Assembly: GCA_028718125.1 (NCBI GenBank)
Contig: JAQUMN010000004.1
Location: 62,001 to 126,000, forward strand
DNA from: Kiritimatiellia bacterium
Lineage (GTDB): Bacteria; Verrucomicrobiota; Kiritimatiellia; JAAZAB01
DNA length: 64,000 nucleotides
Direction: 5' to 3'
Part shown: positions 19,761 through 53,916 of the stretch, one piece after another
Layout: every line of letters begins with the position of its first letter
Position numbering within the stretch: the first letter of the stretch is position 1
Notes under the pieces: model-generated
Database searches by the model: none
What the model saw: the letters and a program-made list of their open reading frames with translations, nothing else
What the model was told of the DNA's origin: nothing
Position numbers and translations under genes: made by a program

Positions 19761-20609
19761 ATGAATCTGGCAATGCTGGCACAAGGCGCGCAAGCCGTTC
19801 GCGCCGCATTCCCAAAGGCGAAACCTGTGGGCGGGCTCATCCTGGGCTCCGGCTGGCGCGCAGCCGCTGCGGCCTTTAAAACACAAGGCCGCCTGAACTA
19901 TAGCGCCATTCCCGGAATGGGAAGCACGACCGTGGCCGGCCACGACGGAACCCTGCTTTGGGGAACATATGCCGGCTTGGAAACGTTTGTTTTTCTGGGC
20001 CGGCGGCACTGGTACGAAGGCGCCGGCTGGGAGCCGGTTGCGCTCCCCGTCTACCTGCTCAAGGCATTCGGCGCTGCGTTTGTGGTGTTGACCAACGCCG
20101 CCGGCGGCATTCGGGCCGACCTGGTCCCGGGCGCGCTGATGGTCATTGATGACCACATCAATGCCATGGGCGTCAACCCGCTGACAGGACCGCACGATGA
20201 TTTCTGGGGCACGCGGTTTCCGGACCAGACGCGGGTATACGATAAAGATCTCCGCCGGATAATGGAGCGCGCGGCGGAACGCCTGGGACAGCCCCTGGCG
20301 CACGGAGTGTATCTAGCGACCTCGGGCCCGACTTACGAAACGCCGGCGGAAATCCGCGCGTTCCGCTCCTGGGGTGCGGATGCCGTCGGCATGTCCACCG
20401 TGCCGGAAGCCCTGCTCGCCAACGCCGCCGGGCTTCGGGTGGGCGCGCTTTCTTTCATCGCCAACCGCGCAGCCGGCCTCGGCGACCGGCCGCCGGCACA
20501 CGCCGAAATCACCGCCGCCGCGGATGCCGCCGCCCCGGTCATGAGCCGGCTCCTGCAGGAACTTTGGAAAGAGTCAAGAATGGTCTCGCGGGAGCTCGAC
20601 CCTCCATGA
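19761..20609 (+). CDS. punA: Purine nucleoside phosphorylase (trimeric PNP-I type)
   Basis: The enzyme phosphorolyses inosine/guanosine and deoxy forms to free base and (deoxy)ribose 1-phosphate. The 282-residue protein shows the trimeric-PNP signatures: ILGSGW (29-32 core), GRRHWYEG (80-87), VVLTNAAGGI (about 109-117), YLATSGPTYETPAEIRAF and GADAVGMSTVPE. The ATG at 19761 fits the family start; the upstream ORF extension is non-coding. The last dozen codons (KESRMVSRELDPP and stop) lie inside a reversed copy of dispersed repeat family A, so the natural C-terminus has been replaced or extended by repeat sequence. It is the middle gene of the nucleoside salvage cluster. Confidence 0.93.
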   Translation: MNLAMLAQGAQAVRAAFPKAKPVGGLILGSGWRAAAAAFKTQGRLNYSAIPGMGSTTVAGHDGTLLWGTYAGLETFVFLGRRHWYEGAGWEPVALPVYLLKAFGAAFVVLTNAAGGIRADLVPGALMVIDDHINAMGVNPLTGPHDDFWGTRFPDQTRVYDKDLRRIMERAAERLGQPLAHGVYLATSGPTYETPAEIRAFRSWGADAVGMSTVPEALLANAAGLRVGALSFIANRAAGLGDRPPAHAEITAAADAAAPVMSRLLQELWKESRMVSRELDPP

Positions 20610-20640
20610 ATGCCAATTTTGCCGTGATATTGGAGGGCGG
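20571..20640 (-). repeat. Dispersed repeat family A, copy 2, overlapping the punA stop
   Basis: Read on the minus strand this is CCGCCCTCCAATATCACGGC, AAAATTGGCATTCATGGAGG, GAGCTCCCGCGAGACC and ATTCTTGACTC, matching the blocks of copies 1 and 3 in order. It covers the last 13 codons of the purine phosphorylase gene and provides its TGA. Confidence 0.75.
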
Positions 20641-27449: not shown

Positions 27450-27560
27450 ACACCCTCCAATATCGCGAAAAATTGGCATTCGTGCCAGGAGCAGCTTGCC
27501 CGCCATAGCCCCCTGGCGACGGCGGGAATTCCCGCGAGACCGTTTTTGACACAGCCGCAG
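27450..27560 (+). repeat. Dispersed repeat family A, copy 3
   Basis: CACCCTCCAATATCGCGAAA leads into AAAATTGGCATTCGTGCCAG, TTGCCCGCCATAG, CCCGCGAGACCGTTTTTGAC and ACAGCC, in the same order as copies at 1-105 and 20571-20640. It occupies the middle of the 430-bp gap between the divergent DegT gene and the CBM48 gene. Outside it I see only AT-rich sequence and AAAAGGAGA before the CBM48 ATG. Confidence 0.75.
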
Positions 27561-47203: not shown

Positions 47204-49069
47204 TCAGGCCAGCACGGACAGGGCGGCGTCAACCCGGCCCATGGGGGCGGAGATCTGAAAGCCGGCCACCGCGTCCGCGATGCGTTCCCGGATTTCGCGG
47301 GCAATCTCGACGCCCATCTTGAGACCGTCTTCCTTGGTGCCGCACTTGCCCATGCGCTGGAGGATGCTTTCCGGCACCACGACCCCGGGCACATGGCGGC
47401 TCATGAATTCCGCGTTCTTGAACGAGAGCAGCGGATAAATCCCGGCCAGGATCGGAATGGTCTTGGGGTGCTTGCGGACCCGGTCCACAAACCGGAGCAG
47501 CGCCTCAACCTCGAACACGGGTTGCGTGAAGGCAAACTCCGCGCCGGCTTCGATCTTCTGAAAGAAGCGGGAAATCTCCCGCTCCATCTCCACGGCCACC
47601 GGGTTGGCGCCAACCCCGATGGCCAGGGCCGTCGGTTGCACGATTGACTGGCCGGCCGCGTCGAACCCGTGATTGAGGTTGTTGACCAGCCGGGCAAGGC
47701 CGATGGAATCCAGATCAAAGACCCCGGTCGCGTCGGGATAGTTGCCCAGCTTGGGCGGGTCGCCGGTAATGAACATCCACGTCTTCAGGCCCAGCGCGTA
47801 AGCGCCCAGGAGATCCGACTGCATGCCGATCAGGTTGCGGTCGCGGCAGCAGTAATGCGGGATGGGCTCGATCTTCAATTCCTTCAACATGGAAAACGCC
47901 GTAGCCACGACGGACATGCGGGCGCTGGCGCGCGGGCCATCGGGGAGGTTGATTGCATCCACGCCGACGGCCTGGCACGCTCGGCACTTGTCAAGAAAAG
48001 CCCGCAGCCCGCCGCCGCTCGAAGGCGGCAGCATCTCGATGGACGTTGCCCGCTGGCCGGACGCCAACTTGGCGGCAAACGCCGACTTTTCCGGGAATGG
48101 GATCGCCGCCGGCATTGGACCAGCGCTTTTACCGGATGCCGGCCCGGACACCGGTTTGGAGGCAATTGCGATGTATTGCTTCACGCCGCTCATGGATTTA
48201 ACGGCCCGCGCGGCCATGCGGATATGGGAGGGGGTCGTGCCGCAACAGCCGCCAACGCCGCGCGCGCCCAATTCAACATAACGCCGGCAGAACTCCGTGA
48301 AGTATTCCGGGCTGTTAAGATAGAGCATCCGGCCGCCGACTTCGCGGGGACCGCCCGCGTTGGGCATGATGACGACAGGCTTGGTGGTGCAGGCAATGAC
48401 GTTTTTCACGGCATAGAAGAGATCCGCTGGTCCGCGTCCGCAATTCAGGCCGATGATATCCACATTCGGATCCGCTTCCAGGCGCCGCGCAAACATCTCT
48501 TCCGGTTTCACTCCGACCGGTTCCAGGGGTTTCGGGATGATGGTAAAAGAGCTCATCACCGGCAGGTTGTGGCGTTTGGCAATTCGAGCAGCCTGCTGGA
48601 GCTGGTCGATGTCAAGAAAGGTCTCGAGGAGCAGCAGGTCGATATCTTCGCCCGCAAGGACGGAAATCTGTTCGTTGAGGACATTGTCAACCTGCGCGAG
48701 GAGTTTGCTCGTTGGCTGCTGATCGGGCGCGAAACAGGGGCCCACGGAGGCCGCCACAAAAACTTTATCTTCGGCCGCCTCCCGGGCCAGGCGCACTGCG
48801 GCGCGGTTGATATCGGCCACGCGGTCGGCTAGTCCATAGGGGGCCAATTTCAGCCGGTTGGCGCCGAAGCTGTTGGTTTCGATGACGTCGGCGCCGGCCT
48901 CGACATATTCCCGGTGAATGCCCAGGATGAGCGGTCCTTGAGTCAGGCACAGTTCGTCGTAGCAGGCATTGAGGAAGATGCCGCGCTGGTAGATCATCGT
49001 CCCCATGGCACCGTCGAACACGAGCGCCCGTTCCCGGATTTGCCGGAGCAGGTTCCGCGACTTTTTCAT
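47204..49069 (-). CDS. Bifunctional homocysteine S-methyltransferase/5,10-methylene-THF reductase
   Basis: The 621-residue protein fuses two one-carbon enzymes. Residues 1-290 form a homocysteine S-methyltransferase (MmuM/MetH-N type: VFDGAMGTMIYQRG; GLNCGRGPADLFY; GARGVGGCCGTTPSHIR, zinc cysteines). Residues about 335-621 form a methylenetetrahydrofolate reductase (TSIEMLPPSSGG with the catalytic Glu; FITGDPPKLGNYPDATGVFD; AEFAFTQPVFEVEALLRFVD). The same architecture is known from YitJ of Bacillus and in PVC genomes. It makes methyl-THF and methionine in one polypeptide. It is single on the minus strand. The 160-bp region downstream carries repeated CTCCTGAATTCTGG-like text, no gene. Confidence 0.93.
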   Translation of the reverse strand: MKKSRNLLRQIRERALVFDGAMGTMIYQRGIFLNACYDELCLTQGPLILGIHREYVEAGADVIETNSFGANRLKLAPYGLADRVADINRAAVRLAREAAEDKVFVAASVGPCFAPDQQPTSKLLAQVDNVLNEQISVLAGEDIDLLLLETFLDIDQLQQAARIAKRHNLPVMSSFTIIPKPLEPVGVKPEEMFARRLEADPNVDIIGLNCGRGPADLFYAVKNVIACTTKPVVIMPNAGGPREVGGRMLYLNSPEYFTEFCRRYVELGARGVGGCCGTTPSHIRMAARAVKSMSGVKQYIAIASKPVSGPASGKSAGPMPAAIPFPEKSAFAAKLASGQRATSIEMLPPSSGGGLRAFLDKCRACQAVGVDAINLPDGPRASARMSVVATAFSMLKELKIEPIPHYCCRDRNLIGMQSDLLGAYALGLKTWMFITGDPPKLGNYPDATGVFDLDSIGLARLVNNLNHGFDAAGQSIVQPTALAIGVGANPVAVEMEREISRFFQKIEAGAEFAFTQPVFEVEALLRFVDRVRKHPKTIPILAGIYPLLSFKNAEFMSRHVPGVVVPESILQRMGKCGTKEDGLKMGVEIAREIRERIADAVAGFQISAPMGRVDAALSVLA

Positions 49070-49186
49070 GGGAACTGATTTTACAAGCCGCTCCCCTCCT
49101 CGTCCAGCATAGAAAAAAGGCGGCTAAGACGCAGCGTCTGATTCCGAAAACATATTATAAATGAAACGCGTCCCCGGTCCTTGAAA

Positions 49187-50095
49187 TCATTTGCGTTTGA
49201 TGAAAGTCCCCTGTTTATATTCCTCAAAAGCAATTTGCAATTCCTCCCGGGTATTCATTACGATGGGGCCATACCAAGCAACGGGTTCGCCAATGGGTTT
49301 GCCGGAAATCAGCAGGAATCGCACGGTATGCGCCTCGGTAAAAACCCTTATCTCGTCGCCGTCATCAAACATGACAATCGTCCCGTTGCCGACAAATGGA
49401 TCGTGTTGTATATCGAAGTAATTGGCTCCTTCCGCTTCGTAAGTGAATGGATTTTTGTCCCTGCAGAAATAGCCTTGGCCATTGATGATGTAAGCGAAGA
49501 CCGTGTGGCCCCGCATCGTGGGGTGTCTGAATTCCGAATGTGCAGGAACCGTAACGTCGATATACTCAGGGTTGATTACAATTCCCCTGACCGGACCCTT
49601 AACGCCGGCCACTTCGCCGGCAATGATCCTGATGGTCGTGCCATTGGGCAGCTTGATTTCGGGTATTTGGCTACTGGCCACGTCTCGATACCGCGGGTCC
49701 ATCATCTTGTCCCGGGCCGGCAAATTGGCCCAGAGCTGAAATCCATACATTTTTTCGTTTGCATCGCCTTTAGGCATTTCCTGGTGGATGATCCCGCTTC
49801 CGGCGGTCATCCACTGTATATCCCCCGAGCGAATAACACCTTTGTTTCCAAGACTATCGCCATGTTCTACGTCTCCAGCCAGGACATAGGTGATTGTTTC
49901 AATCCCGCGATGAGGATGCCAGGGGAACCCTTTTAGATAATGGGCTGGATTATCGGAGCGAAAGTCGTTAAGCAGCAGGAAAGGATCGAACATGGGCACT
50001 TCACTGAATCCAAAAGCCCTTTTCAAGTGAACGCCCGCCCCCTCGATCGTCGGTTTGCTCTTTAGAACTTTCCGGATTTTCCGAATGGCAGGCAT
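49187..50095 (-). CDS. Pirin family bicupin protein
   Basis: Pirins are cupin-fold, iron-binding proteins; some have quercetinase activity and others act as redox-linked cofactors. The 302-residue product has the N-terminal cupin metal set in FPWHPHRGIETITYVLAGDV (His-x-His, Glu) and GSGIIHQEMP (His, Glu), then a conserved second domain. The ATG at 50095 (MPAIRKIRK) is chosen over 50128 because AAGGGGA lies about 8 nt upstream and the family begins there. It is next to a Mrr-like nuclease gene on the same strand, 30 bp away, which may be cotranscribed. Confidence 0.9.
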   Translation of the reverse strand: MPAIRKIRKVLKSKPTIEGAGVHLKRAFGFSEVPMFDPFLLLNDFRSDNPAHYLKGFPWHPHRGIETITYVLAGDVEHGDSLGNKGVIRSGDIQWMTAGSGIIHQEMPKGDANEKMYGFQLWANLPARDKMMDPRYRDVASSQIPEIKLPNGTTIRIIAGEVAGVKGPVRGIVINPEYIDVTVPAHSEFRHPTMRGHTVFAYIINGQGYFCRDKNPFTYEAEGANYFDIQHDPFVGNGTIVMFDDGDEIRVFTEAHTVRFLLISGKPIGEPVAWYGPIVMNTREELQIAFEEYKQGTFIKRK

Positions 50096-50124
50096 AAAAA
50101 CATCCCCTTTTAACTCGGGATTTT

Positions 50125-50529
50125 TCACGGCGCGCCAAGGGCTGTTCTTGTGCCCCCCGGTTGCGATCCCGATTCCACTTTGAATGAGTCAAGCCATTGT
50201 TGGAGAATGGTCCGGTCAATGAGAATGCATTCTGTGCCGCGCGCAAATTCACGGGCATCTTCCGTGAAACTACTATTAGTAACGACCATCGCCTTGGTGC
50301 AGTTGTAGTATTTCATCCCAGCCACAGCGTCATTGACGGCCTTCCTTACGATCTTGTTCTTGGAGCGTTTGACCTGGCCTGCAATCCGTTCCTTGTCCTT
50401 ATGGATGATCATGTCAACGCCATAGTCGCCAGCGTCCCGCAGGTTTCCAACTTCATAGCCCCGTTGCACCAAAAGACTGGCTACAAGTTTTTCAAAAGTC
50501 GATCCGTACATAACGTTCACGGCTGACAT
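50125..50529 (-). CDS. Mrr-like restriction endonuclease domain protein
   Basis: The 134-residue protein is a single PD-(D/E)XK nuclease domain of the Mrr_cat type: TFEKLVASLLVQRGYEVGNL (helix and Glu), DYGVDMIIHKDKERIAGQVK (Asp...Gln-x-Lys catalytic motif), AVAGMKYYNCTKAMVVTNSS and the C-terminal CILIDRTILQQWL. Mrr-type enzymes cut methylated DNA; stand-alone domains also occur as DNA-repair or unidentified nucleases. It lacks the N-terminal winged-helix specificity domain of E. coli Mrr. It lies between pirin and the ArsR-like regulator. No methyltransferase is nearby, so a modification-dependent or housekeeping role is more likely than a classical restriction pair. Confidence 0.85.
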   Translation of the reverse strand: MSAVNVMYGSTFEKLVASLLVQRGYEVGNLRDAGDYGVDMIIHKDKERIAGQVKRSKNKIVRKAVNDAVAGMKYYNCTKAMVVTNSSFTEDAREFARGTECILIDRTILQQWLDSFKVESGSQPGGTRTALGAP

Positions 50530-50797
50530 GTCCGGCGCCGCATTGGAAGCGGCGGCATTCGGGTTGTCTCTGCCAGGGCGCAGGTTGCAATTTCAAGTGC
50601 AAAAGAATGGCCGCTGCAAACTTTCTGCACATGTCTCTTCGCTTGAATAAAACCCGATCATTTCGGTGATATCAATGAAATGATTCATCATTCATTAAAG
50701 CTTATATACTGGTAGTTCTTGATTGCTTTCAATGTATCGCGCGCTCATTTTCTGCCCCCTCTGACCGCTTACGATCTTTCCTTCTCATTTTCCAAAC
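50530..50797. other. AT-rich intergenic region, no gene
   Basis: About 270 bp between the Mrr-like gene and the first 34-bp palindrome contain no supported ORF. The text ATGAAATGATTCATCATTCAT (about 50675-50695) is AT-rich with partial dyad symmetry and could hold the promoter of the Mrr-pirin pair, but I cannot define it. Confidence 0.4.
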
Positions 50798-50831
50798 AAC
50801 ATTCTAACATTCTGCAGAATGTTAGAATGTT
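50798..50831. promoter_or_regulatory. 34-bp palindrome, distal copy, at the regulator gene 3' end
   Basis: The half-site AACATTCTAACATTCT (a direct doubling of AACATTCT) is followed by GC and its exact complement AGAATGTTAGAATGTT. It overlaps the last codons of the ArsR-like gene, so the final Thr-Phe-stop lies in the palindrome. It is nearly identical to the copy at 51110-51143 and is a likely second operator. Confidence 0.75.
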
Positions 50832-51088
50832 CTCATGAACCTCAGGAAGGATCTGCCGTAAGGCGAAAGGGAATGGGCGACCTGGCGGCCGCGGTATTGC
50901 TTGTTCAAAAGGCCGGCCTGAACCAGCGAGCGCGTGTGTTGCGAAATGGTTTTCATGTTGGCGCCAAGCACGCCGGCGAGCTTTTCAACCGTAATGCCGT
51001 CGTTTTGCTCAACGACGCGCAAAATGGCAATGCGCCGATAATTGGCCGCTCCCTTAAAATGCCGCTCCAGTTGTTTTGGTGTTTTCAT
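50822..51088 (-). CDS. ArsR-like winged-helix transcriptional regulator
   Basis: The 88-residue protein is one winged-helix domain: YRRIAILRVVEQNDGITVEK, LAGVLGANMKTISQHTRSLV as the recognition helix, and the wing GLLNKQYRGRQVAHSLSPYG. This is the ArsR/HTH_20 layout. No cysteine or acidic metal-binding box is visible (only one Met-rich segment), so metal sensing is not indicated. Near-identical 34-bp palindromes lie just upstream (51110-51143, between a TTGACA -35 and the gene) and across the stop codon. Autoregulation is therefore very likely. The MATE pump gene is upstream on the same strand and could be its target. Confidence 0.85.
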   Translation of the reverse strand: MKTPKQLERHFKGAANYRRIAILRVVEQNDGITVEKLAGVLGANMKTISQHTRSLVQAGLLNKQYRGRQVAHSLSPYGRSFLRFMRTF

Positions 51089-51109
51089 ATGTGATGCCCA
51101 AGCAAATAT

Positions 51110-51148
51110 AACATTCCAATATTCTGCAGAATGTTAGAATGTTGTCAA
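51110..51148 (-). promoter_or_regulatory. Promoter and 34-bp palindromic operator of the ArsR-like gene
   Basis: On the minus strand a consensus TTGACA (51148-51143) runs directly into AACATTCTAACATTCTGCAG (palindrome 51110-51143, with two mismatches to the distal copy), occupying the -35/-10 spacer. Binding here would block RNA polymerase, the usual ArsR mechanism. The ATG is about 22 bp further. Confidence 0.75.
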
Positions 51149-51303
51149 GAAAGGAAAACGATCGTGTTCGTTACATTCCACGCCGGGGCGGCAATTATTC
51201 GTGTGTAATATCCCCTTCGCCAAGGGGCACCGGTGGGGTCAGGTGCGCGGGCCATAAAAGGCAAATCTGCAAACAACGCGCAACTTTGAGATACGTGCTT
51301 CTC

Positions 51304-52680
51304 TCAGACCGGTAAACGTAAGACGCCGATCGGGTGGGTTTTCCAGCGACCGGTCAGGAACCATCCGGTCACCAGCAGCGCGTGGACCATGATCGCGATC
51401 CCGATGGCCCACCAGATCCCCTGGGTCGCGGGGTGAATAATGCGGGACAAGAAAAAGGCCAGAGGGACCTGCAGGCCCCACAGGCTGATTACCGTGAAGA
51501 TCATCGTGGCCATCGTCTGCCCGGCGCCATCCAGCGCCCGGCCCAGCACAATGGCCAGGGCCACGAAAATGTAGAACGGCGATACGGTGCGCAGATAATT
51601 GGCGCCGACGCTGACGACCTCCGGGTTGTCATCAAACAGGCGCACAAACGGCGGGGCGAATACGATGATCACGGCCGCCGATATCGCCATGATTGCCACG
51701 TCCATGCCCGTCGCCAGCCACGCCGCGGACCGGGATCGGTCCGGCCTCCCGGCTCCAAGGTTCTGGCCGACCATCGTGGCGGCGGCATTTCCAAGCACAA
51801 AAGCCGGCATCAGGATAATCATGTGAAACCGCAGCCCGATGCCATATCCGGCGATCGCGGCGGTCCCACACAGCGCGACGATCCGCATCAGGATCAGCGC
51901 CATCAGGCCGCGGGAGAGCATCTGGCCGGAGCTTGGAATACCGATGCGCATGAGCGTCCAGACCAGGGTCGGCTGGAGCCGCCACTGGCTCGCACGGACA
52001 TGCAGCCCGGAGACGCCGCGTAATAGATAGCCAACAACGAGGCTGGCAGCGATCGCTTGCGAAATCACCGTTGCCCAGGCGGCGCCACGCACTTCCAGGC
52101 GGGGAAATCCCAGGAGGCCGTAGATCAACACCGGGTCGAGCACGATGTTAATAACATTGGCCAACAGCATCGCGAACATCGGCAGCATGGTGTTGCCGAC
52201 CCCCTGCAAGGCGCTGTTACCGATGAACAACACAAAGACCGTGAAACATCCTATGAATGAAATATCAAGATAATCCCGCGCGAGCCGGGTCACGGTTTCA
52301 TCGGCGCCGAGAAGCCGGCAGAGATCGCCGGCAAAAAACCATCCGATAACCCCGGTCGCCACGCCGATCAGGAGCGCAACCAGGAGCGACTGGCCGGCAG
52401 TGTCGGATGCCTCATCCAGCTGCCCGGCGCCGGCGAATCGCGAAACCATGGCAACCGTGCCGGTCGCCGCTCCCATGACGATGGGGAACAGCAACATGAG
52501 AATCGTTCCGCTCATCGCCAGGGCGGCTACCGCATCCGACCCCAGCTTGCCTACCCAGAAGAGATTAATGAGGCTTTGAAAGTTCTGGAGCATGGCGCCG
52601 GCAAACATCGGCCCGGCCAGCTTCATCAGACTTTTTAGAATGGGCCCGGTGGTCAAATCGTTGATATTTCGCTGTTGCAA
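51304..52680 (-). CDS. MATE family efflux transporter
   Basis: The 458-residue protein has twelve helices in two homologous halves of the MATE family (MOP superfamily): GPILKSLMKLAGPMFAGAML, NLFWVGKLGSDAVAALAMSG, ALQGVGNTMLPMFAMLLANV, and second-half GYGIGLRFHMIILMPAFVLG and GRALDGAGQTMATMIFTVIS. MATE pumps export cationic drugs or metabolites using Na+ or H+. The start is TTG at 52680 with AAGGTAGG about 9 nt upstream. It is followed downstream by the ArsR-like regulator gene after about 215 bp, suggesting a regulated efflux unit. The ligand is unknown. Confidence 0.92.
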   Translation of the reverse strand: MQQRNINDLTTGPILKSLMKLAGPMFAGAMLQNFQSLINLFWVGKLGSDAVAALAMSGTILMLLFPIVMGAATGTVAMVSRFAGAGQLDEASDTAGQSLLVALLIGVATGVIGWFFAGDLCRLLGADETVTRLARDYLDISFIGCFTVFVLFIGNSALQGVGNTMLPMFAMLLANVINIVLDPVLIYGLLGFPRLEVRGAAWATVISQAIAASLVVGYLLRGVSGLHVRASQWRLQPTLVWTLMRIGIPSSGQMLSRGLMALILMRIVALCGTAAIAGYGIGLRFHMIILMPAFVLGNAAATMVGQNLGAGRPDRSRSAAWLATGMDVAIMAISAAVIIVFAPPFVRLFDDNPEVVSVGANYLRTVSPFYIFVALAIVLGRALDGAGQTMATMIFTVISLWGLQVPLAFFLSRIIHPATQGIWWAIGIAIMVHALLVTGWFLTGRWKTHPIGVLRLPV

Positions 52681-52740
52681 GACGTACCTACCTTAATTGC
52701 GCGATGCAAAATCAAGACGACAGCTTAAAGTTCCCGGCCA

Positions 52741-53916
52741 TTACAACGCCGGCCATCCAGCAACATGCCGGCGCAGGTCGGCCAGGCGCCGCGTGGCCTC
52801 GCGCAATGTGGCTTCGCGCTTAGCAAAGTGGAAACGGATAAATTGCTGAATCGGCTCGTGGAAGAAACTCGACCCCGGCACCGCCGCCACGCCCACGGTG
52901 CGGGCCAGCCATTCGCAGAAAGCTGTGTCGTCCCGCACCCCGAATTCGGATACGTCCACCATGACATAATAGGCGCCGGCCGGACGGGTATAGCGCAGGC
53001 CGGCCGCATCCAAGCCGGCCAGGAACAGGTCCCGCTTGGCCGTGTAGTCCGCGCGCAACTGCTCATAGTAGGCATCGGGAAAATTCAGCGCGGTCACCGC
53101 CGCCTCCTGGAGCGGGGCCGCGGCCCCAACGGTAAGGAAATCATGCACCTTGCGGACGCCATCAATGATGGCGGCCGGAGCAATCACATAGCCCAACCGC
53201 CAGCCAGTAATGGAATAGGTTTTCGAAAGCGAACTGCAGGAAAGCGTACGCGCAGCCATGCCCGGCAGGGAAGCAAAATAGACGTGCGCGTGGGGCGCAT
53301 AGACGATGTGCTCGTACACTTCGTCGGTGATGACGAACACATCGAACTCCTCCGCCAGGTGTGCGATGGCTTCCAGTTCCAGGCGCGTAAAAACCTTGCC
53401 GGTCGGGTTGGAAGGATTGCATAAAATCAGCGCCTTGGGCCGCTGTTCGAAAGCGCGCCGGAGTTCATCCGGATCGAACCTGAAATCCGGCGGACGCAGC
53501 GGCACATAAATCGGCTCCGCGCCCGCCAGGATCGCATCGGCCCCGTAATTCTCGTAAAACGGCGAAAAGACGATGACCTTATCGCCGGGATTACAGGCCG
53601 TCATCATCGCGGCCATCATCGCTTCCGTGCTGCCGCAGGTTACTACGAGATGCTCATCGGCATCCACGGGGATGCCCATCCACCGGCTCTGCTTGCGGGC
53701 CAGGGCCTGGCGGAAATTGGGCGCGCCCCAAGTGACCGCATACTGGTGCGGCCCGGTGCGGCTGACCTTCTCAAGCGCTGACTGCAATTCGGCGGGCGGA
53801 TCGAAATCCGGAAAACCCTGCGACAGGTTGATGGCCCCGCAGGCATTGGCCACGCGGGTCATCCGGCGGATGACGGATTCGGTAAAATGACTGGTTCGTT
53901 GACTGGTTGACGGCAT
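52741..53916 (-). CDS. Class I/II PLP aminotransferase
   Basis: The 391-residue fold-type I aminotransferase has INLSQGFPDFDPP, TCGSTEAMMAAMMTACNPGD, NPSNPTGKVF, ITDEVYEHIVY and SSLSKTYSITGWRLGY with the PLP lysine. The pattern resembles methionine/kynurenine-type aminotransferases (YbdL, KAT) that use glutamine- or methionine-related keto acids, but specificity is not certain. It lies upstream of the MATE gene on the minus strand, with 60 bp between, and downstream of ettA (24 bp); they may form one transcription unit. Confidence 0.92.
   Translation of the reverse strand: MPSTSQRTSHFTESVIRRMTRVANACGAINLSQGFPDFDPPAELQSALEKVSRTGPHQYAVTWGAPNFRQALARKQSRWMGIPVDADEHLVVTCGSTEAMMAAMMTACNPGDKVIVFSPFYENYGADAILAGAEPIYVPLRPPDFRFDPDELRRAFEQRPKALILCNPSNPTGKVFTRLELEAIAHLAEEFDVFVITDEVYEHIVYAPHAHVYFASLPGMAARTLSCSSLSKTYSITGWRLGYVIAPAAIIDGVRKVHDFLTVGAAAPLQEAAVTALNFPDAYYEQLRADYTAKRDLFLAGLDAAGLRYTRPAGAYYVMVDVSEFGVRDDTAFCEWLARTVGVAAVPGSSFFHEPIQQFIRFHFAKREATLREATRRLADLRRHVAGWPAL

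Follow-up and report, generated by a model that had tools for sequence, protein, structure and literature searches.

Two almost identical palindromes that enclose the gene for a small DNA-binding protein raise the question of whether they are ordinary operators or parts of something that moves between genomes. The pair lies in the window analysed here, a 64,000-nt stretch of contig JAQUMN010000004.1 from a Kiritimatiellia bacterium (assembly GCA_028718125.1). The enclosed gene (50822-51088, minus strand) encodes an 88-aa winged-helix protein of ArsR/MarR-like type with the recognition helix ANMKTISQHTR. One palindrome (50798-50831; full sequence AACATTCTAACATTCTGCAGAATGTTAGAATGTT) fits the pattern (AACATTCT)2GC(AGAATGTT)2 at 34/34 positions and lies across the stop codon, so that it provides the last codons and the stop of the gene (TF*). 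The other (51110-51143) differs from this perfect copy by 2 mismatches, and 278 bp separate the two. Since the gene is on the minus strand, the latter is the promoter copy and the former the stop-codon copy. Shuffled windows contained on average 0.13 matches and never reached two. The first-pass annotation had described such a pair at the promoter and stop codon of one gene, and the positions are confirmed.

The promoter palindrome is overlapped by a sigma70-like promoter (TTGACA-16-CAGAAT, 51121-51148, minus strand; a pattern match only, 10/12 to consensus). Its -35 element overlaps the edge of the palindrome and its -10 element lies inside, with a spacer of 16 bp, and we presume this copy to be an autorepression operator. 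The palindrome forms a strong hairpin (z -5.0); it is followed by no T-run, and a reading as intrinsic terminator was therefore rejected, as was a known RNA family, since Rfam gave no match in window positions 49000-53000. Upstream of the regulator and transcribed towards it is a MATE gene (51304-52680, minus strand), whose own start carries no palindrome.

The regulator gives weak Pfam and NCBIfam matches of ArsR/MarR type. The window protein scores 44.9 bits against the curated cut-off of 55 bits for NCBIfam HTH_metalloreg and 21.9 bits against 22 bits for Pfam HTH_5; HTH_5 is matched at E<=0.001 in 17 of 19 orthologues. An AlphaFold2 model built from the 19 orthologues displays a single winged helix (pLDDT 94.9), and its best PDB matches in Foldseek are ArsR (E 2e-4) and SmtB and MarR (3e-4). 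The ArsR-like nature proposed in the first-pass annotation is thus supported at the level of fold. The protein resembles ArsR/SmtB and MarR repressors both in this fold and in the palindromic operator lying over the promoter, the layout of autorepression. It differs from the ArsR/SmtB metalloregulators in its score below the curated cut-off and in the absence of any cysteine from its 88 residues; the winged-helix fold agrees with an ArsR metalloregulator, but membership in that class is not shown. It also departs from ArsR/SmtB and MarR repressors in having a second palindrome at the stop codon and copies of its binding site dispersed in coding genes. Neither the profile search nor the model revealed a catalytic domain; only the winged helix was found.

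The present genome (4.1 Mb, 92 contigs) contains five copies of the palindrome at up to 3 mismatches and none of a reversed control pattern. Besides the two at the regulator, these are intergenic copies at C3, between an FMN reductase gene and a putative restriction-modification gene (both named from their translations), and at C18, and a copy inside prmC (C55). In the first-pass annotation, many copies unrelated to the regulator were to count against its reading and mark the palindrome as a REP. This condition is largely borne out, as three of the five copies here are unlinked to the regulator, and most copies in other genomes are unlinked as well and avoid promoter regions; how far the name REP fits is discussed below.

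Within the family of this bacterium, seven of ten genomes have 1-10 copies whose 16-bp core is identical, while no exact copy was found in genomes of the class outside the family. In a scan of species genomes, the near-exact palindrome was present in at least 114 DNA stretches; among the matches listed, most are from Patescibacteria (Parcubacteria groups), accompanied by Kiritimatiellota relatives and two Phycisphaerae/Phycisphaeraceae records. In Patescibacteria, whose genomes here measure 0.4-1.2 Mb, the count is 1-16 copies per genome. Nearly all of these genomes are drafts assembled from metagenomes; one complete genome, AP024681, has seven sites, and its first 6 kb contain no recognisable dnaA. 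Viral carriage was rejected, as IMG/VR viral contigs gave no match. In the collected sites, whose sequence variation is underestimated because they were gathered by pattern, changes at the variable positions 8, 9 and 17 are mirrored between the arms (z 7 to 11), and the flanks tend to extend the palindrome as inverted repeats. A literature search covering little of the subscription journals returned no paper containing the palindrome sequence and, for Patescibacteria, Parcubacteria or the candidate phyla radiation, nothing relevant about palindromic elements. The repeat has the appearance of a mobile palindrome family not described before, and not that of a switch for a drug pump.

Some further repeats were noticed in these genomes. 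Palindromes of a second class, ATTCnnATGTTCTnnAGAACATnnGAAT, are scattered too, at 0-5 copies per patescibacterial genome searched; they occur in G060, G066, G070, G072, G079, G080, G084 and others, and none was found in G003 or in the present genome (G000). Four solo copies of the first palindrome (L048, L052, L054, L055) have a common extra flank of about 40 bp (GAAYTTTAAGAGA...), perhaps a longer version of the element. In a Nomurabacteria genome (L117), tandem TAACATTC octamers, corresponding to the palindrome half-site, lie downstream of the regulator (1367-1468 of the locus) and lead into a palindrome copy.

Comparison with orthologues indicates how the copies came to lie where they are. 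The prmC copy is in frame and common to the present genome and G002, G003 and G004; G001, G008 and all further relatives in the alignment lack it. Compared with G001 and G008 it is an insert of 51-63 nt. In a uronate-isomerase-like gene of G004, the palindrome adds 39 nt in frame that six relatives do not have, and in MurD it accounts for 13 extra residues compared with a PDB homologue. The insert lengths (39-63 nt) come from indels against relatives, which do not fix the ends to the base. As these copies are extra to the orthologues, they are inserted elements and not promoter operators that grew by point mutation. Solo copies turn over quickly, and the same genes are not reused between genomes except in close relatives. 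No direct target-site repeats of at least 6 bp surround the copies and there is no excess at 3 bp; small excesses exist at 2 bp (25 vs 11) and 4 bp (5 vs 1.2). A target-site duplication of the kind left by a transposase was therefore rejected, the flanks tending to inverted repeats instead. With no catalytic domain in the regulator and no longer target-site duplication, the copies point to no known transposition route.

The aldolase gene of L147 was rejected as a clean empty site, since the loop concerned contains different short repeats in relatives, and the ends of an insertion are unreadable there. Class II fructose-bisphosphate aldolase genes of other Patescibacteria (L311, L312, L313, L314, L317, L321, L326) contain in-frame arrays of 7-bp tandem repeats. 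The repeat units differ (CTACAAC, CATTCAG, TTTTCAA, AATCAAG, ATGTCAA), and the arrays lie in the same loop as the palindrome in G084.

Of 206 distinct palindrome sites, 63 bracket regulators, 31 are too near an end to judge and 112 are classifiable solo copies. The latter comprise 26 inside ORFs (of at least 90 codons, all genes being mechanical ORF calls), 27 in convergent, 50 in tandem and 9 in divergent gaps. For equal lengths of gap sequence, solo copies are about four times more frequent in convergent than in divergent gaps (P=5e-5). Copies in tandem gaps lie a median of 32 bp past the stop of the upstream gene, and 31 are nearer to its 3' end, compared with 19 that are not. A regulon of promoter operators would have its sites concentrated in promoter regions; we found 9 divergent against 27 convergent copies. 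A common regulon was also rejected because the genes beside the copies share almost no family except at orthologous loci.

About 20 of the intragenic copies are read through with the frame staying open. The palindrome then encodes xHSNILxNVGMx or, in Kiritimatiellota, TFQHSAECWNV, and one patescibacterial gene has TFQHSQECWNV. The genes concerned, named by reading their translations, encode PrmC, PGK, PurL, MurC, MurD, PyrC, TsaD, GltX and Gnd, as well as aldolase, a NUDIX protein, HsdS, TspO and glycosyltransferases; PGK, aldolase, PrmC, MurD and TsaD were additionally matched to solved structures.

The regulator accompanies the palindrome in many of these genomes. Homologues were identified in 26 of 29 palindrome-bearing patescibacterial genomes, with up to seven per genome. 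G001, G002, G004 and G008 carry palindromes and gave no match in the regulator search; these genomes are incomplete. In G004 the locus is reduced to a remnant, one palindrome with only the 3' tail of the regulator, and its aminotransferase and methyltransferase neighbours are the same. Most homologues analysed have a palindrome pair, one copy usually 45-150 bp before the coding start and the other at the 3' end, and about eight are without a clear pair. Read by eye, the regulators of a deeper subfamily take their C-terminal peptide, ILKFLRTLE, and their stop codon from the palindrome. The two palindromes of a pair have a mean identity of 0.92, as opposed to 0.75 across regulators, and in 24 of 40 cases no other palindrome matches better than the own partner. 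The homologue L082/L236 of genome G060 stands between copies of another palindrome, even though AACATTC-type copies are present in that genome as well.

Five classes of recognition helix pair with five palindrome cores: NxKT[IV]S[QE]HTR with ACATTCTnnAGAATGT, N[EA]KTIGEHTRR with ACAAACTnnAGTTTGT, N[FIY]KT[AI]SxH[IVL] with ATGTTCTnnAGAACAT or close variants, SxxKNISxHIN with ATTCGTTAGAAT and GY[QE]NA with GTTTTGCAAAAC. Within these classes, a Q before the helix histidine goes with a GC centre of the palindrome in 13 of 14 cases, and other residues at this place do so in 2 of 25 (P=1.7e-7, kinship ignored); Q pairs with CTGCAG, and E mostly with CTTGAG, CTCAAG or CTTAAG. The distant homologue L300 repeats the Q-GC pairing. 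Judged from sequence, this covariation is the best evidence for binding of the protein to its own palindrome. As the palindrome follows the recognition helix, it is very probable that every regulator recognises the pair that encloses it. Autoregulation through the promoter palindrome, which the first-pass annotation had also suggested, gains support from the promoter overlap and from the covariation over about 40 homologues, and we infer both direct binding and autorepression from these patterns.

The regulator gene has been exchanged between Patescibacteria and Kiritimatiellota. The three Kiritimatiellota regulators fall within a clade of 12 proteins (support 99/92); the rest of this clade is patescibacterial and goes with palindromes centred on GC. 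Their identity to patescibacterial orthologues reaches 80-82%.

It is mainly in Rickettsia that palindromic repeats inserted in frame into essential genes are known. The RPEs of these bacteria are about 150 bp long, belong to several families and lie in frame in unrelated housekeeping genes, where they are read as a conserved peptide; the enzyme that mobilises them is unknown, and what moves them is an open question (PMC10969869). Going by the description in that review, the present palindrome resembles an RPE in being dispersed and in lying in frame inside intact conserved genes whose orthologues lack it. It differs in its length of 34-38 bp, in its occurrence in Patescibacteria and Kiritimatiellota and in bracketing the gene of a cognate DNA-binding protein. 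With helix and palindrome changing together in many genomes of two phyla, this much smaller element connects a dispersed palindrome to a protein in a way that can be tested, and it offers a natural set of specificity variants (helix Q or E with different palindrome centres). It also cautions that a palindrome pair around a regulator gene need not be a pair of ordinary operators.

We consider it probable, though by no means certain, that the locus is a winged-helix autorepressor gene set between two copies of its own binding palindrome, and that these belong to a dispersed family of palindromic elements like the RPEs. On this reading, the family works like an RPE- or REP-type repeat equipped with its own autorepressor. 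The regulator would bind the promoter palindrome as a dimer, or as two dimers given the doubled half-sites, and shut off its own promoter, while the second copy makes up the end of its gene and may act by looping, as a roadblock or as the end of an element. Solo palindromes, some at the 3' ends of genes, some in convergent gaps and others in frame within housekeeping genes, would be inserted elements comparable to RPEs or REP sequences, and the unit of palindrome, gene and palindrome would have passed between Patescibacteria and Kiritimatiellota. Weighing against this reading are the lack of a known transposition route, insertion ends not fixed to the base, covariation statistics that ignore kinship, the palindrome-bearing genomes with no regulator match and the differing bracket of L082/L236. 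A bolder version strikes us as possible but tentative: a self-contained mobile unit that has no catalytic enzyme, spreads both whole and as solo palindromes through Patescibacteria and other phyla, and might induce host replication or repair to copy the palindrome, protein and palindrome co-evolving.

The scattered palindromes could instead be working binding sites of an autoregulated DNA-binding protein that has many sites away from promoters. The parS, Noc and SlmA sites are short palindromes conserved across phyla, with several copies per genome including some inside genes, and the palindrome resembles them in all these respects. A chromosome-organising or roadblock role of this kind would agree with the very strict conservation of 34 bp across phyla, the covariation of protein and site, the avoidance of divergent promoter gaps and the copy numbers in the small patescibacterial genomes. 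However, parS, Noc and SlmA sites are not inserted repeats, whereas the present ones are inserted relative to orthologues, turn over quickly, do not recur at the same genes outside close relatives and occur in several genomes that gave no regulator match. We regard this explanation as rather unlikely, albeit the strongest competitor.

A more doubtful alternative is that an unrelated enzyme spreads an ordinary REP-like hairpin repeat, of which the regulator merely adopted two copies as operators. In REP/RAYT systems, the gene for the tyrosine transposase RAYT (TnpA-REP) is flanked by two palindrome copies, and single copies often lie near gene 3' ends and between convergent genes. Our family is alike in its palindrome-flanked gene and its dispersed single copies at such positions, and the strong hairpin and the symmetric covariation of variable positions and flanks would also suit a REP. 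But a fixed foot sequence of the GTAG kind is missing from the palindrome, and the bracketed gene encodes an 88-aa winged helix with no catalytic domain and thus no Y1 tyrosine transposase. Lacking both a catalytic transposase domain and a direct target-site duplication, the element is neither an insertion sequence nor a RAYT. In addition, most homologues analysed retain the bracket, and its palindromes vary together with the recognition helix; a bystander repeat would not behave in this way.

The compact autoregulated efflux switch controlling the MATE pump, as read in the first-pass annotation, is very improbable: the two genes adjoin in this one genome, but the pump lies upstream with no palindrome at its promoter, the orthologues in G003 (beside an FMN reductase gene) and G007 have other neighbours, and the regulator has neither a cysteine nor a known metal-site motif.

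Two minor observations concern the surroundings of the locus. The regulator, a pirin gene and a small Mrr-like nuclease gene (window 50125-50529) adjoin in both G003 and the present genome, in different order, and the G003 homologue of the nuclease gene ends directly on a further palindrome copy (L017:2563-2596). The window also contains three copies (1-102, 20588-20635 and 27455-27556) of a dispersed repeat of about 50-100 bp (CGCCCGGAGGCTATGGCGGGCAAGCTGCC...) that is unrelated to the palindrome and occurs at more than 20 places in this genome.
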